Both the position numbers and the translations under genes were made by a program. Under the pieces are notes generated by a model. It was not told where the DNA came from, ran no database searches, and saw only the letters and a list, made by a program, of their open reading frames with translations. Positions 18,556-43,069 of a DNA stretch of 43,069 bases are shown one piece after another (position 1 is the stretch's first letter; each line of letters starts with the position of its first letter). The stretch is from the IMG/VR virus record IMGVR_UViG_3300037245_000958, positions 1 to 43,069 of that record; one strand, written 5' to 3'. The stretch is from a virus.

Positions 18556-19889
18556 TGGCTATCGAAGACCTGTATGATGTTGGGGCGCTTAGGGATTATG
18601 TTGCTCAACAGCAAGGAGCTGGCTTGGTTCCGGAGTTTACCAATATTCCTGGAGCTGCAGGATTCTTTGTAGATGATGTGTCTCCCCCTAACCTAGATGA
18701 GGAGGATCCTTTAGCTGAGCTTCCAGATATTGAATCTTTTACTGATTCTTATTCTGCCAAAGAGACACATAGGCAGTTATCTCAAGAATTAGATATAAAA
18801 AAAGAAACTCGACAAAGAGAGTTAGAATTAGCAGCTGGTATAGAAGACTTACGTTCTAATGTTGTTACTTGGAAAGCTACAGGTCTAGCTAATTCTCCTC
18901 TAGTTCAAGATACTGAAAAGCAAATTATAGCTAAAGAGCAAGAGATTAAGCAAACTTTAGCTTTAGATGAACGTGGGTATAGGGATGCTTATCGTTATTT
19001 AGATCGTTTATCCGATAAAGCAGATCAATTAGCTCCGCCTTTAACTCCTGAACAGCGATTTATACTTGCTGATAAAGCTGGGATTTCTGGAGATGATGGA
19101 GCACAGCTAACTGATAATCAGCTTAAAATGGCAGCTACTATTACAGGACAAGAAAGACAACCGGCTATTGCATTAATCAATGCTGGATTACAAATTAAAC
19201 ACGGGCAAATTGCTTCTAAGTATCTAGGTCATACTCCTACTGATTTAGATATAGCTAGTTGGAATAAGGATACTAAATCTTTTCTAATAAACGAAGAAGA
19301 ATCTGGGGGCACAACTACTTTAACTCAGGTATTAGGAGAGATACCTGATAGCTTTGATATGTATGTTAAGAAATTACCTTTAGATTATGATAAAGCAGAA
19401 GCAGCTCTAATGTTGCAAGAAGCTACAGCACTAAAGAAGGATGTATTAAAAGCTAAAGCAGAAGCTACTATACCAAAGAAAGATAAAACTCCTTCGTTTG
19501 GACTAGCTGATAGAAAGAAAAGTGATGCTTTAGAGTTAGAGGCAGCAAGAGATAAAGCTGTTGTTAATGCATTAAATACATTTAATACAAATTTTATTGA
19601 TACCTATTTTGAGGTAGACACTTCTAAGTATGCAGAGTTAGGGGCGTCAATAGATGAGCTATCAAAACTTCTTGCTGATCCAGATACTAAACCTAGTACT
19701 CTTATGTGGTATAAAGCTAGATTACAAACTACCATAGATAATGCAGAAAAGGCTACGGGTACTTCCTATCCCCCAGTACAAACCATTATAAATGATATAA
19801 TGAGCACTTCTATAAATACGTTTAATACTAAGTATGCTACTATGGGTGTCTTTCATTCCTTAGCTAATCTTTCTCCTGGAGTATTGTAA
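18555..19889 (+). CDS. Internal virion (ejection) protein, middle
   Basis: 444 residues, acidic, with long helices rich in Gln, Lys and Glu (about 55-160 and 280-400), likely coiled coil. No membrane segment or enzyme motif seen. It corresponds in order to the middle ejection protein of T7-type phages. Both ends overlap neighbours in TAATG, indicating balanced translation of the three-gene set. Confidence 0.65.
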   Translation: MAIEDLYDVGALRDYVAQQQGAGLVPEFTNIPGAAGFFVDDVSPPNLDEEDPLAELPDIESFTDSYSAKETHRQLSQELDIKKETRQRELELAAGIEDLRSNVVTWKATGLANSPLVQDTEKQIIAKEQEIKQTLALDERGYRDAYRYLDRLSDKADQLAPPLTPEQRFILADKAGISGDDGAQLTDNQLKMAATITGQERQPAIALINAGLQIKHGQIASKYLGHTPTDLDIASWNKDTKSFLINEEESGGTTTLTQVLGEIPDSFDMYVKKLPLDYDKAEAALMLQEATALKKDVLKAKAEATIPKKDKTPSFGLADRKKSDALELEAARDKAVVNALNTFNTNFIDTYFEVDTSKYAELGASIDELSKLLADPDTKPSTLMWYKARLQTTIDNAEKATGTSYPPVQTIINDIMSTSINTFNTKYATMGVFHSLANLSPGVL

Positions 19890-22800
19890 TGTTAGCTAGA
19901 AATCAATTATCCTACATGTCTGCTCAAAATGAAATGGGAGCTACTAATAAAGATCCATTTGAGTTTGATGATATAGTTGATTATGCTGGAGCTACTGCCT
20001 TAGATGTAGGAGTTACACTTATTAATTCCCTTTCATGGTTAGGTACTCTAGGACAGGCAGGTACTGAGTTTGATACAGGGGAGATTCTTCATTCTATCAA
20101 TGAAGATGCGGGTAGATATTATGACCAGCATAAAGATCTAGTACAACTATCCTCTTTTATAGGTGGGATGTTTATACCCGGAATGGCAGCATCTAAGACT
20201 ATCCAATGGGCTAAAGGTGGGCGTACCTGGATAGGTGGATTAGAGAATACAATTAGAAAATCTGAATCTCAAGCTATTGCCCAGTTTGCCGAGTTTGGTA
20301 AACGTACAGCTAAGTATAATGAAGCTAGGAATTCTATGCGATTAGCTACATTAAAATCAGGGGTGGCTGAGGGTGTAGTATATGAAATAGAATTTGCAGC
20401 TATGATGAATAAGCATGCGTATATGGATAATGATTATGATCTAGCTGATTTTGCTATAGGTGCAGCATTGGGAGGCTTAGTTGCCCCTTTACGTCTTATT
20501 CAACAGACTAAAAAGTTTAAAGCCTTAGAGCGTATAGAGGCTACTTCTCAGGTATCAGATAAAGCATTTACCCAACCTATGCATCTTCAAGGTAAGGATG
20601 CAGGACAGACATTATCTTATAGGGGTATGCTATATACTAATTATACCTTAGATGATACAACTAAGCTTTCTGTAGAGCTACAAGAGCAGCATAAAATAGC
20701 TGGGTATGAGCATATAAATGGTATTTCCTATCAAATCAATAAAATGGCTAGAGGAGATAAAGCGTTACAGGGTAAAATTAATTTTACTATATCCCATGCT
20801 GAGCAGTCTACTCCTAGAAGCTTTGATCTTAAGGATGCTTTTGATTATACCCCAGATGAGTATATAGGTAGATTTGCTATATCTGATGCCTCTGCATTAA
20901 ACGGAGTAGAAACCCTACGTTACTATAATGCTGAAACTCCAATGTGGAGTACTATGGAAGGTATTGTAAAGCAATCAGATGATGGGGCTATTGAGATAAT
21001 TACTGGACAGGTAGCTAGAAATACTTTATTTTCTAATTTTACCCAAAATTTTATCCGGTCTCATGATGAAGTAGTACGTAGTATTCCAGAAGGGGTAGAG
21101 ATAGTAGAAGCTGGATTGCAAGTTACAGCAAAAGAAACCTCTAAGGATATGCGTAGATGGATGGCCGAGTATGTATCCTTACCTCATATCTCAACCAGAC
21201 CTATTACCATTACAGGAGCTGCTAAATTTAATCTTTCTGAAGCAGCTGTAAAGCGTGAAGCTGTGTGGAAGGAGATGTCAGCTACCCTGACCCACGGGGA
21301 TTTTGTAACCCATACTAACCTAATAAACCAACTTGGAATAGAGTCTTCAAGAGCAGCCATAGCTGATCCTTATTATGGTCAAAGAATACTCTCTGAGGTA
21401 GATGCACTTGCAGGTGCGGGTATTAATTCTTATCCCTCTATAGCTATCAACAAGCAAGCTACTTTATCTACTAAGTTAGGAATGGCCCCCTTTAAGCAAT
21501 CGGTTCCTATGTCTGATAAAGCTTATCATGAAGCTATGATTGCTGTAAATAGGCTTCCGGCTAGGATCAAACAGATAGAATTAAATTTCTCTTCTGATGA
21601 TGTAATTCCTCAGCTACAAGCTCTGCTTAATAAATACTCCCCTGATACCTGGCCTACAATATTAAGCAAGGATGCTAAAATTACATTAGGAAATAGAACA
21701 GAAGCTGCTAGGTTTCTATGGGAAGAAAAGCAAGCTATGGTTGCAGTAGGCAAAGCAACAGGAGCTTCATCTACACAGATAGCTAGAGTAGCTAATCTTG
21801 ATATAACTACCGCAGAAACTATTCTAGCAGCTAGAGGGACTAAGCTTCCATTTGATGAATCTTTACCTGTAGCCCGCTATCTTTCCAATGATCAAGCTAA
21901 GTACTATTCTCAGAAACCTATTCAGTTAGAAGGAAAGATAGGGTCTTATGGGCAGGTAGAAGAAGTATCTATAACTACTATGCATGATGTAGATACACTC
22001 ATTAATGCTGATATAGCTATATCCAGAAACATTATAGATACTTCTGGTGTACCGCAATTAGCAAAATTTATGAATGAGGTGCTATTTACCCCTATCTCTA
22101 AGACAATGAGGGAACAATTGCCTGAAGCTCTAGCAGCTACAGAAAATGTATGGAATACTGTAACCTCTGCTGATCATGGAATGAGGATATTAAAAGAGTA
22201 TGGAAACTGGGTAACTGCCTATGGCCATAGCTTATCAACATTTACTAATAAACATGTAACAGATATTAAAGAAGCTATAACTCCTACGTTATCCGCAGTA
22301 GCACAGCACCCAGTTTCTAGGTTACAATTCTCACAAGTACGACAGGCACTTCATGCTATTCCTATTGAAGATGCTGTAAAGCTGCAATACGAAGAAGCTA
22401 CAGGAAAGATCATTACAGGGATAGTAGATGATCAACCTCAGTACCTTAAGTACTATAATAAAGAACAAGATTTAGAACTCACTAGGCAGATGCAAGAATT
22501 TATGCGATCTTGGCTTCCTCAACAACAAGAGTTGTTAGCTGTTTATAATGTTGATAGACAATTGCATGGGCTACCTAAATCTAGAGGTGCTGGTATTTGG
22601 TTTCCTTACTCAGAACTTAATAAGGATATAGTAGCATATAAAGTACCTAAGTCAGGACAGGCCGGACAGGTAGAACTTATTACTGCTAATAATGCTAAAG
22701 ATCTAGCAGAGGATATAGCAGAAGCTAATCAGCTATATGGCAATACCCATGAAATAGTTTCTAAAGCTGATTCTTCTGCTTGGAATCAAATCAATAGGTA

Positions 22801-24787
22801 TGCAGATTTAGAGCAATTCAAAGTCTCTGATTTTTCTAATAGAAAGAGGGGCATTACTTCTTTAGGTATTACCCCTGGTATTACAGATATAGATAATTTT
22901 ATGGGGTCTGTGCAGAGGGAAATTACAAGTCAGTATCGTAGAATAGCCAGAGCTTCTAATGCTTCGTTGCATGATCGTTTAGATTTCTTTGCTAGAAGAG
23001 AATCTGCAGCTACCAAAGGTGGTAAGTGGCAACAACAAAAAGTATCTATGCCAGAGCTAGTCTCTAAAACTATGCTTAATGAGTCTATGGTAAGTCACAC
23101 CCCAATATTGGATACAGCTAATAATTGGACAACCACGGTAATTAATACTATAGCTGATAAACTAGATATAGCTAAGAAAAGTATAGTTGGAAAAGGTAAG
23201 GGGGTAGAGAGGGAGTTTGAAGAATTAACTAAGAGTGCTGCGGAAGCAGGGGTTCCATTACCTTATCCTAATATTGAAGCTTATACAGCTGCCCTGAAAA
23301 AAGGTAAGATAGAGGATGTAGCGTTACATAGAATTCAAAAAGCCCAAAGCTTGCTAGTTATGTTTAACCTAAGATTGCTAGAAGCTAGTCATGCAGCTGT
23401 AACTACTGCTTCCTTACCTGTGATTTTACAGGGGGAGTTAACGCATGTTACTGGACAAGGTGGACTTAATCCTCTAAAGCATATGATGGAAGCAGGGAAG
23501 TTTTGGGGAGGTAATAGTGCTGAAGTTACTGCACTTAGAAAGATAGCTAGTGAGCATAAGTATGTACAATCTATTGTAGCGGAGACAACTAAGGCTATGG
23601 ATAACTTTCATAGCTCGCAGCTACCTTTTGAAAAATTTATGGAAGAGCATCCTATCCTAAAGAAGATAGCTGTAGGTGCTTCTGATTGGTCTGAGGGGTG
23701 GACTAGAGAGCAAACTTTTGCTAATGGTTATTTGCTTGCTAAAGCTAAATCTCCTACAGCTCCTATGGAATTATTAGCAGCGGAAGCTTATGCTTTTACC
23801 CAACGGACTATGGGTAACTATTCTCCACGTCAACGTCCTACTATGTTTCAAGGAACCTTTGGGGCCATGATTGGGCTTTACCAAACCTTCATGCTCACCA
23901 TGGGCCAGAACATGTTTAGGTATCTTGAGGCTGGAGATACTAAAGCTATGAGAAACCTTTGGGGCGCTCAAGGTTCTATGTTTGGTATTGAATCCTTACC
24001 CATGTTTCAACAGTTTAACCAGCTATTAGGAGGTTATGTATCTGATGATCATGAAGATTTTAGATCTACTATTTATGGTGCCTTCGGAGAAGACTCAGAT
24101 CAAAGTAGATCGGCTGCTGAACATATTCTTTTTGGTGTACCAAGCGCTGCTTTTGGTGCTGGGATATATACTCGTGGTACTTTGGATCCTCGTTCACCCC
24201 TTACGGTAACTGACAGAGCTGGCTTTGCTTTTAAACCTGCTATCTTTGATGCTGCTACCCAGGCTGCCCAGTTAGTGGGTAATCTAGCTCAAGCTGCTGG
24301 ATCAGAAGATTTAGGTAGGGCTATCTTGCAGGGATTCGCAGCTCAGAGTCTATGGCGGCCCGCAGCTAGATATGCTGAATTAGGATTAGGAGCAAGTTTT
24401 GACCAGAAGGGAGAATTGATTAGTACTCAGGAAGAGGTATCAGAACCCTTTGCTGTGCTATCCAGAGTTATAGGGGCTAGACCTCTTAGGGAGCAAGCCC
24501 TTCGTAATCTCCGTTTTTCTAACACTTATTATAATTCTATTGATAAGGATAGAAGAGCGGTATATACTAAGGAGCTTAGAAGGATTGCAACCTCAGAACC
24601 TAATCCAGCTAAGATTGATGAGTTGTTTATTAATTTTATAGAGTCCCCAGGAGGGACATATAGGGGATGGAAGCAGATCTATAATGAAGCTTATAGTGCA
24701 GCAGAGACTCCATATGCAGATAGGTTAGTGAGTGATGTAAAGCGACAGCCTACGATACAACGGATTGTGGATACTTATGCTCAATAG
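19889..24787 (+). CDS. Large internal virion (ejection) protein
   Basis: 1632 residues, the largest protein, last in the rightward arm. Hydrophobic Gly/Ala-rich stretches near residues 90-105 (FIGGMFIPGMAA) and 188-200 (FAIGAALGGLVAP), and amphipathic segments near 1325-1480, fit a protein that enters the cell envelope and forms the DNA channel. I found no lytic transglycosylase (SLT) signature, which T7 gp16 has. The gene ends about 90 bases before a terminator. Confidence 0.75.
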   Translation: MLARNQLSYMSAQNEMGATNKDPFEFDDIVDYAGATALDVGVTLINSLSWLGTLGQAGTEFDTGEILHSINEDAGRYYDQHKDLVQLSSFIGGMFIPGMAASKTIQWAKGGRTWIGGLENTIRKSESQAIAQFAEFGKRTAKYNEARNSMRLATLKSGVAEGVVYEIEFAAMMNKHAYMDNDYDLADFAIGAALGGLVAPLRLIQQTKKFKALERIEATSQVSDKAFTQPMHLQGKDAGQTLSYRGMLYTNYTLDDTTKLSVELQEQHKIAGYEHINGISYQINKMARGDKALQGKINFTISHAEQSTPRSFDLKDAFDYTPDEYIGRFAISDASALNGVETLRYYNAETPMWSTMEGIVKQSDDGAIEIITGQVARNTLFSNFTQNFIRSHDEVVRSIPEGVEIVEAGLQVTAKETSKDMRRWMAEYVSLPHISTRPITITGAAKFNLSEAAVKREAVWKEMSATLTHGDFVTHTNLINQLGIESSRAAIADPYYGQRILSEVDALAGAGINSYPSIAINKQATLSTKLGMAPFKQSVPMSDKAYHEAMIAVNRLPARIKQIELNFSSDDVIPQLQALLNKYSPDTWPTILSKDAKITLGNRTEAARFLWEEKQAMVAVGKATGASSTQIARVANLDITTAETILAARGTKLPFDESLPVARYLSNDQAKYYSQKPIQLEGKIGSYGQVEEVSITTMHDVDTLINADIAISRNIIDTSGVPQLAKFMNEVLFTPISKTMREQLPEALAATENVWNTVTSADHGMRILKEYGNWVTAYGHSLSTFTNKHVTDIKEAITPTLSAVAQHPVSRLQFSQVRQALHAIPIEDAVKLQYEEATGKIITGIVDDQPQYLKYYNKEQDLELTRQMQEFMRSWLPQQQELLAVYNVDRQLHGLPKSRGAGIWFPYSELNKDIVAYKVPKSGQAGQVELITANNAKDLAEDIAEANQLYGNTHEIVSKADSSAWNQINRYADLEQFKVSDFSNRKRGITSLGITPGITDIDNFMGSVQREITSQYRRIARASNASLHDRLDFFARRESAATKGGKWQQQKVSMPELVSKTMLNESMVSHTPILDTANNWTTTVINTIADKLDIAKKSIVGKGKGVEREFEELTKSAAEAGVPLPYPNIEAYTAALKKGKIEDVALHRIQKAQSLLVMFNLRLLEASHAAVTTASLPVILQGELTHVTGQGGLNPLKHMMEAGKFWGGNSAEVTALRKIASEHKYVQSIVAETTKAMDNFHSSQLPFEKFMEEHPILKKIAVGASDWSEGWTREQTFANGYLLAKAKSPTAPMELLAAEAYAFTQRTMGNYSPRQRPTMFQGTFGAMIGLYQTFMLTMGQNMFRYLEAGDTKAMRNLWGAQGSMFGIESLPMFQQFNQLLGGYVSDDHEDFRSTIYGAFGEDSDQSRSAAEHILFGVPSAAFGAGIYTRGTLDPRSPLTVTDRAGFAFKPAIFDAATQAAQLVGNLAQAAGSEDLGRAILQGFAAQSLWRPAARYAELGLGASFDQKGELISTQEEVSEPFAVLSRVIGARPLREQALRNLRFSNTYYNSIDKDRRAVYTKELRRIATSEPNPAKIDELFINFIESPGGTYRGWKQIYNEAYSAAETPYADRLVSDVKRQPTIQRIVDTYAQ

Positions 24788-25921: not shown

Positions 25922-27166
25922 TTAATACTTATGTTCATCATCTCTTAGTAGCCCAAAATCTATTAACCCTTTAGGCCATCTAGAGTTTACTTGATTGTGG
26001 GCGATATATACTGTACCCGCTTTACCTTGTACCTCCCTTTGTACCTTCTCAGCAATCACTAATCCATCTAGTATATCTTTTAAATCTAAGAACTTATTTA
26101 GATCCCTAGATACATACCTCCATATCTGCTTCATAGTTAATGCTCCTACTCCTGGAGCATTTAATGCTGATAAGATTGTATTGGCTACCTCCGCATGTTT
26201 ACTTTTACCATACTCGCCTAATGCGGAGGACATAGATAACTCCGCATTATATAAAATAGTGTTTGCTAATATGCAATCATCTACTGTTGTTTCTAGTGAT
26301 CCCCTAGAAGCTGTTATGACTATTAATAGTTTTAATAAATGTGTGAATCTTCTTTGACTATAGTATTGGAATCGGGAATCTTCCATTCGTGGACAGGATT
26401 TATATAAAGAATCTAGGATAGTTCTTACTTCTTCAGATAGTATTAGTTCACCTTCAAGTTCTTGGATAGAGATAAGATTTTCTATAAGTTCAGTTTCTAA
26501 GGCTTTATTTGGTGGATCAGGAAAGGTTATTTTTATCTCAGTCGGTTCAGAGAATATAAATAGTACTCTGGAAAAGAATCCCCCACCTAAAGCTATAGCT
26601 TTAAAAGTATCCGCTATACCTTCTGGGGTAATACCAGACAGTATATTAACTGTTGGTTTATTGATTGTTATATCCGGCCCTCTAGTTTTAGGATTAGTAA
26701 AGGATGGAAGGTTATCCCATAGGTTAGCTAGGTTAGTAATAAAGGCATCATCCCCTATACCTACAAAATCTAGGAACTCATCATGAGCTACATAAGCTTC
26801 TGTGATAGTTTCATCTTTATCAACATCCCAATCTAGCATAGTATCCGCATCATCTATCTCTTCAAGGGATGATTTACTAGACATCCATTTCCAGAAAGAT
26901 TCTTTAACAGCTTTGTTAGGGGCTGTATGTTTATACCCTAGGGATTCTACTAGGTTCTTCCCAATCTTTATAGCTGTGCCTTTTCTTGCTCCCGGTGATC
27001 CAGTTAACATAATGTATTGGTTAGGATAAATTCTATTATGCCCAAAGGGAATATAGACTGATCTACCAATAAGTGATCCTACTAGAGATAGAAGCGCCCA
27101 GCGATGAAAAGTACTAGGCGCTTCATTGGTTCCCACGTAGCTAAAATAGAGGGAGAATATATCCAT
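25922..27166 (-). CDS. DUF3987-like P-loop ATPase, probable replicative helicase
   Basis: 414 residues. The start APSTFHRWALLSLVGSLIG and YPNQYIMLTGSPGARKGT with Walker A at 56-64 match DUF3987-type ATPases often found with phage polymerases. A Walker B-like AHDEFLD lies near residue 128, and the C-terminus carries a winged-helix-like segment (about 320-400). No primase domain is seen. Likely role: replication helicase or helicase loader. No Shine-Dalgarno site is visible; the start overlaps a 14-codon ORF stop (TAATG), so translation is probably coupled. Confidence 0.7.
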   Translation of the reverse strand: MDIFSLYFSYVGTNEAPSTFHRWALLSLVGSLIGRSVYIPFGHNRIYPNQYIMLTGSPGARKGTAIKIGKNLVESLGYKHTAPNKAVKESFWKWMSSKSSLEEIDDADTMLDWDVDKDETITEAYVAHDEFLDFVGIGDDAFITNLANLWDNLPSFTNPKTRGPDITINKPTVNILSGITPEGIADTFKAIALGGGFFSRVLFIFSEPTEIKITFPDPPNKALETELIENLISIQELEGELILSEEVRTILDSLYKSCPRMEDSRFQYYSQRRFTHLLKLLIVITASRGSLETTVDDCILANTILYNAELSMSSALGEYGKSKHAEVANTILSALNAPGVGALTMKQIWRYVSRDLNKFLDLKDILDGLVIAEKVQREVQGKAGTVYIAHNQVNSRWPKGLIDFGLLRDDEHKY

Positions 27167-27210
27167 TAAAAGGGGGGCAAAGGAGTATGATGCATTAGGG
27201 TTACTTTCAT
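27166..27210 (-). CDS. 14-codon coupling ORF between DHH and helicase genes
   Basis: MKVTLMHHTPLPPF then TAA. The ATG overlaps the stop of the DHH phosphoesterase gene (ATGA), GGAG lies six bases upstream, and the TAA overlaps the start of the helicase gene (TAATG). The helicase gene has no ribosome site of its own, so ribosomes probably reach it through this mini-ORF. Confidence 0.5.
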   Translation of the reverse strand: MKVTLMHHTPLPPF

Positions 27211-28088
27211 ATCATTAACTCCGCAAACTGTTTAGGGGAAAGATAGAAACCCGCAGCTGCAGGATGCCCCCCGCCTCCATAACTTTCTGCTATTTTAGCT
27301 ACATTAACCTCTCCTTTCCTGCCTCGTAAAGAGAATTTCCATTTATGTTCTTCTCTTTGATATATAGCTACATAGGGGGCAAGAGATTCTTTAAGCAGTA
27401 TTGTTGCTCCTAGCTCGGAAGCTAAAAACATAGGGGCATTAATAGCTGGAATATAATATCCTCCTAGCTCTATGCCTATCAATCCCTTCTCAATAAGCTG
27501 TTGAATCTGGTTAGCTTGCTGCCTTAATAAGGGTTCCCCTTCTGCCTTCAGAACCATAGCTCCCATAGGATCATCTATATGAATAGCTAACAGCTGCACT
27601 GTAGGAGTATAAGAATAGAGTGCAGCACAGATAGCCCTTGTATCTTCTAACTCGAAGAGCCATAGGTCTCTATCGGCTATGGCTAGGAGAATATCTGGAA
27701 TAATTGAATCAGCAGGCGGATAAAGGTAGTTCCAAGCTAAGATACATCCAGCCTTTGTAGTATCCAAAGTAAGTTTTAGGTTATCCGGTAGGGCATTAGC
27801 CTCCTGATACACATCTAGCTTTCTTACTGCTGATTCATGATGATCGAATACATGAACCTGAGTAGCTAGTCCAGCCAGTAACACTAACTCTTCTGGTTCA
27901 TAGCTAAAATCTACAATATAAACTTCTCTCCCGTCTATCATTTCTGCAGGTGGAGGTGCGTCCCCATATTGAGCAGGGAGTAAGTCCACATCCTGATCAA
28001 ATCTATCCCAGAAGCACCATGCAGCAGCTATGCCATCTAAGCAATTTGCATGGTGAATGATTAGCGGGCGACTAATTTGCATACTCAT
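27207..28088 (-). CDS. DHH-family phosphoesterase (NrnA/RecJ-like)
   Basis: 293 residues. N-terminal motifs NCLDG (15-19), VDFSY (59-63), FDHHES (81-86) and a later ADRD provide the metal-binding residues. The C-terminal DHHA1 signature YGGGGHPAAAGF is near 269-280. These enzymes degrade short oligonucleotides or cyclic dinucleotides, or act as 5' exonucleases. In a phage it could recycle nanoRNA or remove signalling nucleotides of defence systems; which is not shown. AAGGAT precedes the start. Confidence 0.88.
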   Translation of the reverse strand: MSMQISRPLIIHHANCLDGIAAAWCFWDRFDQDVDLLPAQYGDAPPPAEMIDGREVYIVDFSYEPEELVLLAGLATQVHVFDHHESAVRKLDVYQEANALPDNLKLTLDTTKAGCILAWNYLYPPADSIIPDILLAIADRDLWLFELEDTRAICAALYSYTPTVQLLAIHIDDPMGAMVLKAEGEPLLRQQANQIQQLIEKGLIGIELGGYYIPAINAPMFLASELGATILLKESLAPYVAIYQREEHKWKFSLRGRKGEVNVAKIAESYGGGGHPAAAGFYLSPKQFAELMI

Positions 28089-29680: not shown

Positions 29681-31912
29681 TTACTTCTTCCAGTAATAAC
29701 TAATATCAGTCTCTAAGGGAATTCGCATAACCCCAAAAGGGGTTTCTTGTTCTATATCCATTATCTCTTCTTGCTTCTTAGCATATTCCTTAGCCTTACC
29801 CTCTATCGCTTGGCTAACAATACTATCATGTATCTGCCCTTTGAGTCTATACTCTCCCTTACTTGGTACTTGTACATAATAGAACAATTCCCAGAAAGCT
29901 CTATTAATTCCTACTACTGAGAAATGTTGGGACTTATGGGCTACACAGCTACGCATCACAGCATGAGAATGAACTATATCTCCTAATATTATACGAGTCC
30001 AACCATCAGGGGTTACTATCTTACCTGTGGTTGCTACTTCTTTAACCGTAGTTTCCCACCCCTCTTTTACCTCTGGGTAAAGCTCATGGTATAGAGCTAA
30101 GCAATGAATAGCAAATTCCTTTATTGTCCCTTTAAACCCAACTAACTTCCTATAATGCAATAACTTCTCTAGTCCTACAGAATCTATAAATGTAGCCCAA
30201 CCCATAATATAATTAGTACCATGGATAATCTTCTTAACAGCTTGCCTAAGATCGTGGGCTTTATCAAATTCTATACCAAAGAATCTATATCCTGTGTAAC
30301 AATAGAAATCTTTAACACCTGCTATCTCTGGTGGATTCTCCAATGCTTCTCGTAAGGATTCTGAAGCTGCTAAGTAAGCTGTACATCTAGCTTCACTTTG
30401 GGACTTATCAGTATCTATAAGAAGATACCCTTCCTCTGCTCGCATAGCTTTCTTTAAGTACTCCGGTATATTCTGTAATTGCGTTCCCATATTTTGTGCA
30501 GATGTAAAGGTTAATTTTCTACCAGTAGTAGAGGGAGCGAATAAAGAGGAAGCACTACAAGCAAACCTGGAGGTTTCAGTACCATCTAACTGTAGAGAGT
30601 AGAGTAGTAAGTCATTATCGGTAAGTCGAGCATTATAATATGTACCAATAGCCTTTTTTAATTCTCTGTGTTTAATAATCTTAGTAGTAAATCGCTCAAA
30701 TAATGGATGCTGCCTAGCTACTTTTGTTAATTCTAATTCTCCGGTAGCAGCTTTTGATTTAGCTCTTGCTGGAATCTTAGCACCTAGTACATCATATATC
30801 AATGCATGTACCTGTTGCCATGACCCAGGATTAAAATCATTGAACCCGGTCATAGCTAATAGCTCTAGTTTTATCTGGTCTAGCTCTCCTTGGGCTTCTA
30901 GCTTGGCTCTCTCCCTTAGTGTGGTATCAGTCTTAAAGCCTTCAAAACAGGTATAAACCACCGGAGCTATATTAGGACAAAGCTGGGAGTAATTTTTCCA
31001 TACCCATCTAGGAGCTTTTTGTACTAACTTAATAAATATCCTAGCTGTATTAATAGTATCTTTAGCATTGTATTCTAACGGATTAAGCTCTGATTCGTAC
31101 TTCCAATAATAATAATCTGGGAGAATAAAAGAAGCAATCTTTGCTAGAGCTTTAGGTAACTCAGCGTACCAGCAACGCCAGATATACTCTGTGTCATAAA
31201 GATAATTATTAATCACACAATGGAAACGTAGTAAATGGAAGGTATCAAAGCAACCATTATGGAATACCTTAGGAATAGAACTAGCACATATCTCTTGAAC
31301 TAGCTCCCAAGCTAAGTATAATTCTTCTATCTCTCTCCAATGATCTGGCATAAGGGAGATAGTATAGGTGCTACCTATCTCATAATCATCTGTGATAGCT
31401 GTAAAAGCTATAGAAGAAATCTTGTTTTCTAATGTAGTTTCTATATCTACTGTAAGTACTGCAACATCTGAAAAGCTGGAAAGTAAATCCATCCTAGCTT
31501 TCTCTAAGTGCTCTACTGACTTAGCTATAGTGTAATCATACTTCCATGCTCCTGTAGCTGTAGCACTTAGCTTTCTAACATCAATCTGGAAGAGGAGTTT
31601 ACCAGTAGAAGTAGTTCGTATATGAGATAAAGGTTGTCCTATTACAATAGGAGTAGACATAAATACCGTAGTACCTCTCCAGTCACTAAGATTAATTCCT
31701 CCCCTAGTATTAGTTGGTACTACATTAGCTAAGGTTTTAGGGTTAGTGCAATAGATTGCATCGGCCCCAAGGCTTTCAGCTAGATCCATTAAACCTTCTA
31801 TCCCATAGGTTTTATAAGTACACTTAGCTTGGTGGCCTAAGGTCTTGAACTCTTCAAGTACATAGCCTTGGTAATTCTTATCCGCTGAAGTAAGGTTAAG
31901 AAGGATACGCAT
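29681..31912 (-). CDS. polA: DNA polymerase, family A, with 3'-5' exonuclease
   Basis: 743 residues. Exonuclease: VDIETT (D156, E158), HNGCFD (N219, D223), YNAKD (Y281, D285). Polymerase: motif A DKSQSEAR (D502), motif B R556-QAV-K560-KII-H564-GTN-Y568, motif C HDS (695-697). It replicates the phage genome. Two oddities: the O-helix position equivalent to E. coli Phe762 is His564, and motif C reads HDS instead of the usual HDE. No 5'-3' exonuclease domain. The start overlaps the upstream stop in TAATG. Confidence 0.97.
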   Translation of the reverse strand: MRILLNLTSADKNYQGYVLEEFKTLGHQAKCTYKTYGIEGLMDLAESLGADAIYCTNPKTLANVVPTNTRGGINLSDWRGTTVFMSTPIVIGQPLSHIRTTSTGKLLFQIDVRKLSATATGAWKYDYTIAKSVEHLEKARMDLLSSFSDVAVLTVDIETTLENKISSIAFTAITDDYEIGSTYTISLMPDHWREIEELYLAWELVQEICASSIPKVFHNGCFDTFHLLRFHCVINNYLYDTEYIWRCWYAELPKALAKIASFILPDYYYWKYESELNPLEYNAKDTINTARIFIKLVQKAPRWVWKNYSQLCPNIAPVVYTCFEGFKTDTTLRERAKLEAQGELDQIKLELLAMTGFNDFNPGSWQQVHALIYDVLGAKIPARAKSKAATGELELTKVARQHPLFERFTTKIIKHRELKKAIGTYYNARLTDNDLLLYSLQLDGTETSRFACSASSLFAPSTTGRKLTFTSAQNMGTQLQNIPEYLKKAMRAEEGYLLIDTDKSQSEARCTAYLAASESLREALENPPEIAGVKDFYCYTGYRFFGIEFDKAHDLRQAVKKIIHGTNYIMGWATFIDSVGLEKLLHYRKLVGFKGTIKEFAIHCLALYHELYPEVKEGWETTVKEVATTGKIVTPDGWTRIILGDIVHSHAVMRSCVAHKSQHFSVVGINRAFWELFYYVQVPSKGEYRLKGQIHDSIVSQAIEGKAKEYAKKQEEIMDIEQETPFGVMRIPLETDISYYWKK

Positions 31913-32229
31913 TAGCTAGGATTAACCTTAGAAATCTCCCCTGGATTAACTCTAAATCTACCGGAATTACCTATGTGAGCTACAGTATAACTTCCATATT
32001 TAGATTCATGTATAATAACTTTATCTCCTTCTTTAGCAAAATATCCTGGAGGATGATGATCCTCTCCGTCATCCCATATATCTTTTACTATATAAACTTC
32101 TTGTGTGGGTTGAAAGTTTAAAGGAAGTGCCCACCATTCCTTAAATCCTTGTTCAGTATTAGTACCTGGCTGATTATGCCACCAATAATAAAAAGCTATA
32201 GCTATTTCTTCTATCTTATTTTCATTCAT
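31912..32229 (-). CDS. Hypothetical protein with SH3-like C-terminal half
   Basis: 105 residues from ATG at 32229, whose ATGA overlaps the stop of the peptidase-like gene; the longer frame from TTG 32259 is unlikely. Trp-rich N-terminus (FYYWWHNQPG) and a C-terminal half with strand pattern GDKVIIHESKYGSYTVAHI, resembling a small beta barrel. Stop overlaps the polymerase start. Function unknown. Confidence 0.65.
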   Translation of the reverse strand: MNENKIEEIAIAFYYWWHNQPGTNTEQGFKEWWALPLNFQPTQEVYIVKDIWDDGEDHHPPGYFAKEGDKVIIHESKYGSYTVAHIGNSGRFRVNPGEISKVNPS

Positions 32230-32630
32230 TGACTTAGTACCTTTGTAACCTCTGACCAAGATTTTAAATTATCTATAGTATAATACTCTATATCTGTAAT
32301 TCCTTTATTAGGATCATATACATTGATTATCTCTTGAGTATTAGTTTGTAGTACTATATAATGAGATATTCCTTTTCTATTTAAAGAAGGAGTAACTACT
32401 ATATAAGTACTATTCCATTCTAATCTAGGGTATAGTTGATGTTCAAATTCTATATCTAGCAAGGTTAATAGGTTTTCTAATCCCCAGATATTTACTCCTG
32501 TATCATCTATATCTGGTACACCTACAGCTAAGTCTTTTATAGCTTCATAGTAACTGTCAGCTACCATAGCTACGCAAGCTATACCACAGCCATTAGGATC
32601 TTCTTGTTGTACATGTTTTATCTGTCTCAT
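32226..32630 (-). CDS. C39-like/papain-like cysteine peptidase
   Basis: 134 residues from ATG 32630, which has GAGGAT upstream; a TTG start ten codons earlier is less likely. Q8-Q9, GCGIACVAM with C15, SHYIVL with H90, and VYDPNKG with D106 fit the Gln-Cys-His-Asp arrangement of C39-like peptidases. The family cleaves peptides or isopeptides, for example double-glycine leaders. Its place in the replication arm suggests an intracellular target rather than prohead maturation. Substrate unknown. Confidence 0.65.
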   Translation of the reverse strand: MRQIKHVQQEDPNGCGIACVAMVADSYYEAIKDLAVGVPDIDDTGVNIWGLENLLTLLDIEFEHQLYPRLEWNSTYIVVTPSLNRKGISHYIVLQTNTQEIINVYDPNKGITDIEYYTIDNLKSWSEVTKVLSQ

Positions 32631-32641
32631 AGTCCCCATCC

Positions 32642-32848
32642 TCAACCTATAATCCTGCAAACTCGCTCTTGTTCTTCATAGCTAAAATGCCCATGCAGAT
32701 TCTGAAGCTTAATTCCAGATAATCTTCTAAGTCTCTCTACTCGTTCTTGTCCTTCTAATGGGAGATAGATATAAGCTTGAGGCCCAACCCCTAATCCATT
32801 AGCTATACCCTCAGCATGTTTCTTTGTTTTAGCAGAGATTAAGATCAT
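32642..32848 (-). CDS. Hypothetical protein, 68 residues
   Basis: Alpha/beta protein starting MILISAKTKKHAEGIANGLG, with YIYLPLEGQERVERLR later. The pattern suggests a small fold with a strand followed by basic helix. Between two other small genes of the replication arm. Unknown function. Confidence 0.6.
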   Translation of the reverse strand: MILISAKTKKHAEGIANGLGVGPQAYIYLPLEGQERVERLRRLSGIKLQNLHGHFSYEEQERVCRIIG

Positions 32849-42949: not shown

Positions 42950-43069
42950 TAGTAGGATAGTAGTGTTAGGTAGCTAGAGGATAGTAGTAGCTAGTAGATA
43001 GCTATGTAGTATAGGGGGAAATGACGTCACCCATACACACCCCCCCCCCGCGAAGTTGTGTCGTTTGTG
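42950..43069. repeat. Right copy of the terminal direct repeat
   Basis: This is an exact copy of bases 1-100, followed by 20 bases with five differences from 101-120. The aligned stretch runs to the last base of the window. It lies between the divergent gene arms, where a packaging start or replication origin would be plausible. The divergence after the C10 run could be read error, strand slippage or true population variation. Confidence 0.95.

Follow-up and report, generated by a model that had tools for sequence, protein, structure and literature searches.

Published surveys divide viral family A DNA polymerases by the residue at position 762 (Escherichia coli numbering) into Phe, Tyr, and Leu types, which are tied to particular helicase and ribonucleotide reductase neighbors (PMC6302109). 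The 43,069-nucleotide stretch of viral DNA analyzed here (IMG/VR record IMGVR_UViG_3300037245_000958; "the window") encodes a family A polymerase that was proposed, from its sequence, to carry His at this position. Is the His correctly placed, is it peculiar to one phage, and what kind of enzyme carries it? The premise of the original prediction, that known viral enzymes have Phe, Tyr, or Leu, is borne out by three studies (PMC6302109, PMC9069017, and PMC13228545), one of which, Keown 2022 (PMC9069017), discarded any sequence whose residue 762 was not F, L, or Y and so excluded His762 enzymes by design.

The polymerase gene is an exact, intact open reading frame (ORF) with an ATG start, whose 743-residue product comprises 3′-5′ exonuclease and polymerase domains. 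It belongs to Pfam DNA_pol_A (84.9 bits; cutoff, 34.3), is the only match to that family within the record, and also matches PHROG 17 (DNA polymerase). Comparison with an 80% relative gave dN of 0.14 and dS of 1.71 (dN/dS, ∼0.08); the gene is under purifying selection, and its conservation together with this ratio rules out a chance or damaged ORF. The AlphaFold model (pLDDT 91; its numbering is one lower because the initial Met was omitted) has the Pol I fold: both domains superpose on the E. coli Klenow fragment over 542 residues (Z 31.9; 3.3 Å), at ∼20% sequence identity; Klenow differs in having F762, N845, and HDE in motif C. The gene sits in an operon-like block with genes encoding DUF3987, DHH, nuclease, and SF1 helicase proteins (Table 1).

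Table 1. Coordinates of the polymerase gene, its active-site motifs, and neighboring genes in the window
Feature	Position	Strand	Basis
Family A DNA polymerase gene, His762 type	29681..31912	(-)	ORF, Pfam, PHROG, predicted model
Exo I, D156-I-E158 (E. coli D355, E357)	31439..31447	(-)	Alignment
Exo II, N219-D223 (E. coli D424)	31244..31258	(-)	Alignments
Exo III, Y281-D285 (E. coli Y497, D501)	31058..31072	(-)	Alignments
Motif A, D502-K-S-Q-S-E507 (E. coli D705, E710 steric gate)	30392..30409	(-)	Alignments
Motif B / O-helix, R556 to Y568, with K560, H564, N567	30209..30247	(-)	Alignments, model
Codon CAT of His564 (762, E. coli numbering)	30221..30223	(-)	
A658-H-K-S-Q662 (E. coli N845-Q849); Ala845 goes with His762	29927..29941	(-)	Alignments
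Motif C, H695-D696-S697	29822..29830	(-)	Alignment
DUF3987 AAA+ ATPase gene, 414 aa, MCM-like predicted fold; probable replicative helicase, conserved partner	25922..27166	(-)	
DHH/DHHA1 phosphoesterase gene, between polymerase and DUF3987 genes	27207..28088	(-)	
SF1 helicase (Dda/RecD2-like) gene, same replication half of genome	39066..41120	(-)	

Motif B reads R556-QAV-K560-KII-H564-G-T-N-Y568, in which R556, K560, and Y568 are equivalent to E. coli R754, K758, and Y766. A MAFFT alignment of 16 sequences placed H564 on E. coli F762 and T7 Y526, an L-INS-i alignment of 21 sequences gave the same placement, and a phmmer alignment put it on Taq F667. In the model, H564 lies within a single helix that begins near R556 and stops just short of Y568. 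The three alignments, this helix placement, and the Klenow superposition agree that His occupies the 762-equivalent position, as had been proposed, and a misaligned His is ruled out. Other active-site residues are retained: the motif A Asp, motif B Arg and Lys, and motif C His-Asp are present (D502, R556, K560, H695, and D696), as are equivalents of R668, D705, Q708, E710 (the sugar steric gate), K758, Y766, and Q849. The exonuclease acids D156, E158, D223, and D285 are all retained, again as claimed, together with Tyr281. The window polymerase has in common with the Phe, Tyr, and Leu types (Nasko 2018; Keown 2022) the family A fold, the catalytic Asp pair, R754, K758, Y766, and Q849, but differs from them in Ala845 and in His762, which places it outside all three.

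The other active-site feature singled out by the original prediction, HDS rather than HDE in motif C, was read correctly; it is not special. Among the sequences we collected, 98 of 159 Phe762 enzymes and 150 of 159 His762 enzymes have Ser after the HD dyad; the sample is nonrandom but nevertheless suffices to show that HDS is common. Ser at this position was also noted for phiVC8 DpoZ, with the same residue in T5 (PMC8599892). We therefore dropped HDS as a noteworthy feature.

Two IMG/VR scans yielded 160 relatives. The first, aimed at the clade of the window polymerase, used patterns that include the His motif and is partly biased for that reason, although it also recruited loci without a match to the His-motif pattern, all of which have His. 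The second used patterns distant from position 762 that do not cover it. His762 was found in 80/80 loci from the first scan and in 70/70 readable loci from the second, so that with these two baits it is fixed in 150/150 relatives; when shorter ORFs were allowed in the second scan, the count was 77/77. Two bait scans for other types recovered 153 Phe and 6 Leu enzymes and no His at 762. Members of the clade include Pseudomonas phage 119X and its kin, Polaromonas phage Tiera, EBPR podovirus 3, Aeromonas phage P5, Caulobacter phage Kuura, Microcystis phage Mel-JY34, a Desulfofustis phage, and Vibrio phage VS-ABTNL-3. The polymerases of the Fredfastierviridae (Pseudomonas phages 119X, PaP2, and PaMx), Tiera, and EBPR podovirus 3 are 33 to 35% identical to that of the window over nearly their full length and likewise have His762, Ala845, HDS, and a downstream DUF3987 gene; those of 119X, Tiera, and EBPR podovirus 3 differ in having one extra residue between the R754 and K758 equivalents. 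His762 is thus not one phage's peculiarity but the mark of a large, broad, and very diverse clade. The possibility that a His/HDS clade had already been characterized proved half right: the clade exists in GenBank and IMG/VR, but we found no paper in the open-access literature that names or tests it. The same literature yielded no relevant report of His762, H762, or F667H, and no activity data for any clade member. A scan of 84,980 species genomes from bacteria and archaea, limited by its search patterns, returned two relatives only, both on metagenome-assembled genome contigs (3.8 kb and 42 kb), and so gave no sign of a prophage reservoir of His762 polymerases.

The O-helix itself varies within the clade. 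An extra residue between the R754 and K758 equivalents (RNKVLKKIVHG) is found in loci L004 to L006 and many of loci L026 to L083, but is absent from the window polymerase and its nearest kin. R754 binds the dNTP γ-phosphate; among 68 readable second-scan loci, 21 have Tyr at the equivalent position. Some loci from that scan have two extra residues before K758, and the alignment of the R754 region is tentative there.

Other residues travel with His762. In our first survey, whose rows contain some duplicate loci, Ala845 accompanied His762 in 159/159 cases and Asn845 accompanied Phe, Leu, or Tyr762 in 168/168; exceptions found later are two His762 loci with Ser845 and the polymerases of ctLwi270 (Tyr762/Ser845) and vir526 (Phe762/Asp845). 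Positions 765 (mostly Asn in the His762 clade) and 857 also split the groups. According to a review (PMC3347538), the N845A change makes Klenow less selective, and N845 may be a sensor of primer-terminal pair shape.

A tree of 64 representatives, built with a mixture model and excluding columns 762, 765, 845, 846, and 883, needs only a single change to His762 (support 90/76). All His762 sequences plus ctLwi270 grouped together with support of 99/99 in a first tree and 96/80 in a second, and His762 alone as one clade was not rejected (p-AU 0.46). The window polymerase has His762 and Ala845 and groups within this clade. While ctLwi270 adjoins it, vir526 and the long-branched T7 do so less surely; on the nearest branches, residue 762 is Phe or Tyr. 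The best reading of these trees is that His762 arose once. If so, the link between His762, Ala845, and DUF3987 reflects one historical event, and the counts given here are not independent tests of it.

The gene that accompanies the polymerase encodes a DUF3987 protein. With equal flanks on metagenomic contigs, a DUF3987 gene lies ≤1,300 nucleotides downstream of the polymerase in 111 of 140 His762 loci versus 0 of 141 Phe/Leu loci; it is on the polymerase strand in 133/133, and these downstream genes form one DUF3987 subfamily. Every named His762 phage that we examined has a DUF3987 gene after the polymerase. In the window it is farther away, with two small ORFs and the DHH gene in between. 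Recruitment in reverse, by DUF3987 alone, gave His762 in 80/80 and 23/23 metagenomic loci (103/103), many of the 80 being contigs that the first scan had also recovered. Two DUF3987 queries each retrieved the same 26 of 50,697 GenBank phage records, whose main representatives have His762 polymerases except ctLwi270 (Tyr) and vir526 (Phe); as for two fresh DUF3987 records used as a test, Vibrio phage VS-ABTNL-3 has His762 and vir526 does not. Conversely, eleven His762 contigs, chosen because they lack a nearby copy, had no DUF3987 match anywhere on the contig (nine were searched again with a clade-specific DUF3987 profile), which indicates that the partner is not obligatory; the eight that were also searched for a DnaB-type helicase gave no match. 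These contigs, together with vir526 and ctLwi270, break any strict one-to-one rule between His762 and DUF3987.

The exceptional loci have their own structure. In vir526 (BK063670; assigned an archaeal host, Methanomicrobiales), the Phe762/Asp845 polymerase is paired with DUF3987 (locus L447, 2181-4760 and 4773-6263), an arrangement that may resemble the state preceding His762. The polymerase of ctLwi270 (MW202554) is split into two ORFs, an exonuclease part and a polymerase part (locus L349, 27-1286 and 1438-2664), and the DUF3987 gene follows. The His762 polymerase gene of VS-ABTNL-3 (MF497422; locus L446, 1825-3531, 3531-4085, and 4063-4959) is interrupted between the region preceding motif A and motif A itself by a 184-residue ORF, PVS_28, which slightly overlaps both sides; an intron, an intein-like element, or a split enzyme are possible explanations.

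What the DUF3987 protein does is suggested by its predicted structure. It contains a Walker A-like stretch (GSPGARKGT), and its model (pLDDT 85) resembles the AAA+ core of MCM over 263 residues (Z 19.8; 3.2 Å); each of the 50 fold matches listed is an MCM protein or a complex containing one. The predicted model thus has an MCM-like AAA+ core. At 414 residues, the protein aligns to the ATPase part of the chains of MCM replicative helicases. No MCM sequence match was significant: Pfam returned DUF3987 only, and a profile search gave MCM3 at an E value of 0.12. DUF3987 proteins are annotated as primases in several phages; Pfam shows no primase domain in this one. We found no DnaB-type helicase gene within the window. 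Kazlauskas et al. (PMC5862659) predicted a helicase function for DUF3987 domains on the grounds that these take the place of MCM, RepA, or DnaB beside primases, and this prediction together with the MCM-like predicted fold makes the DUF3987 protein a likely candidate helicase.

Taken as a whole, the window polymerase is of an ordinary kind; what sets it apart is an active-site variant that is uncommon and defines a clade, together with a notable partner gene. The account that we favor, with good though not full confidence, is that it is the replicative, proofreading polymerase of a tailed phage and belongs to a monophyletic viral PolA clade in which position 762 would have become His once, along with Ala845 and mostly Asn765, and that the DUF3987 AAA+ ATPase, with its MCM-like predicted fold, probably unwinds the fork beside it. 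Judging from its position, His would replace the Phe or Tyr residue that stacks against the incoming dNTP's sugar. We infer the helicase role, a direct partnership between polymerase and DUF3987 protein, and the effect of His on selectivity. The DUF3987 pairing and the MCM-like predicted fold suggest a distinct replisome with an MCM-like helicase; for Phe, Tyr, and Leu types, by contrast, gp4-type or SF2 helicases are the reported neighbors. We would expect the enzyme to be a competent replicase whose His762 is tuned to its own site (Ala845 and Asn765), such that a lone swap of His762 to Phe or Tyr should impair rather than improve it.

Alternatively, His762 could be a near-neutral lineage marker that hitchhiked when the clade was founded, in an enzyme that behaves like an ordinary Phe762 replicase. 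A single origin would be consistent with this, because all of the linked residues then share one history, as would the Phe or Tyr on the nearest branches; however, His is invariant in 150 loci of a very diverse clade in which the R754 column varies (Tyr in 21/68), and T7 Y526F and Y526L, which lower activity by 50% and 97%, also alter infection (PMC13228545), so that position 762 evidently matters. We regard such neutrality as unlikely, if still credible. Bacterial PolA works mainly in repair and in Okazaki fragment processing, and the window polymerase could by analogy be a repair or accessory enzyme while a different polymerase copies the genome. This seems improbable, since it is the only DNA_pol_A protein in the record and lies in the operon-like replication block, and since no other polymerase family was seen among the ORFs scanned. 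More improbable still is that His762 suits an unusual substrate such as a modified dNTP, as DpoZ suits 2-aminoadenine: phiVC8 DpoZ also has Ser after the HD dyad and an unusual motif B (PMC8599892), but its hallmark Phe in place of the steric-gate tyrosine at 766 is absent from the window polymerase (Tyr568), which scores 17.5 bits against the NCBIfam DpoZ model (cutoff, 500) and is thus not DpoZ-like, and no nucleotide modification gene was seen among the subset of window ORFs scanned.

There is also a bolder proposal, toward which we remain tentative and lean slightly to the skeptical side: the His762 enzymes may add a fourth functional type to the viral family A replicases. Their dNTP site would be reorganized (His762, Asn765, and Ala845), and they would have evolved in a replisome with an MCM-like helicase rather than DnaB, gp4, or SF2, the lineage having gone unnoticed partly because surveys admitted only F, Y, or L. 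Position 762 serves as a marker by which the sequence of a viral polymerase is tied to its speed and fidelity, its helicase partner, and the life cycle of the virus, and a whole clade with another residue fell outside that scheme. That these polymerases often occur with one DUF3987 subfamily extends a published rule linking 762 type to helicase type, and suggests that some bacterial viruses copy their DNA with a bacterial-type polymerase beside an MCM-like motor. The relatives also offer natural His762 templates for work on ddNTP use and fidelity.

Several other features of the window are worth recording. A direct terminal repeat of 120 nucleotides (1-120 and 42950-43069; 96% identity) suggests that the record represents a nearly complete genome. 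Immediately upstream of the polymerase gene, 32226-32660(-) encodes a peptidase C39-like protein (Pfam E value, 6e-10), unusual within a replication block; the gene overlaps a small ORF. The structural block ends with a gene for a 1,632-residue protein (19889-24787[+]; PHROG 16165, unknown function), and a giant protein is encoded at the equivalent place in 119X, Tiera, and EBPR podovirus 3.
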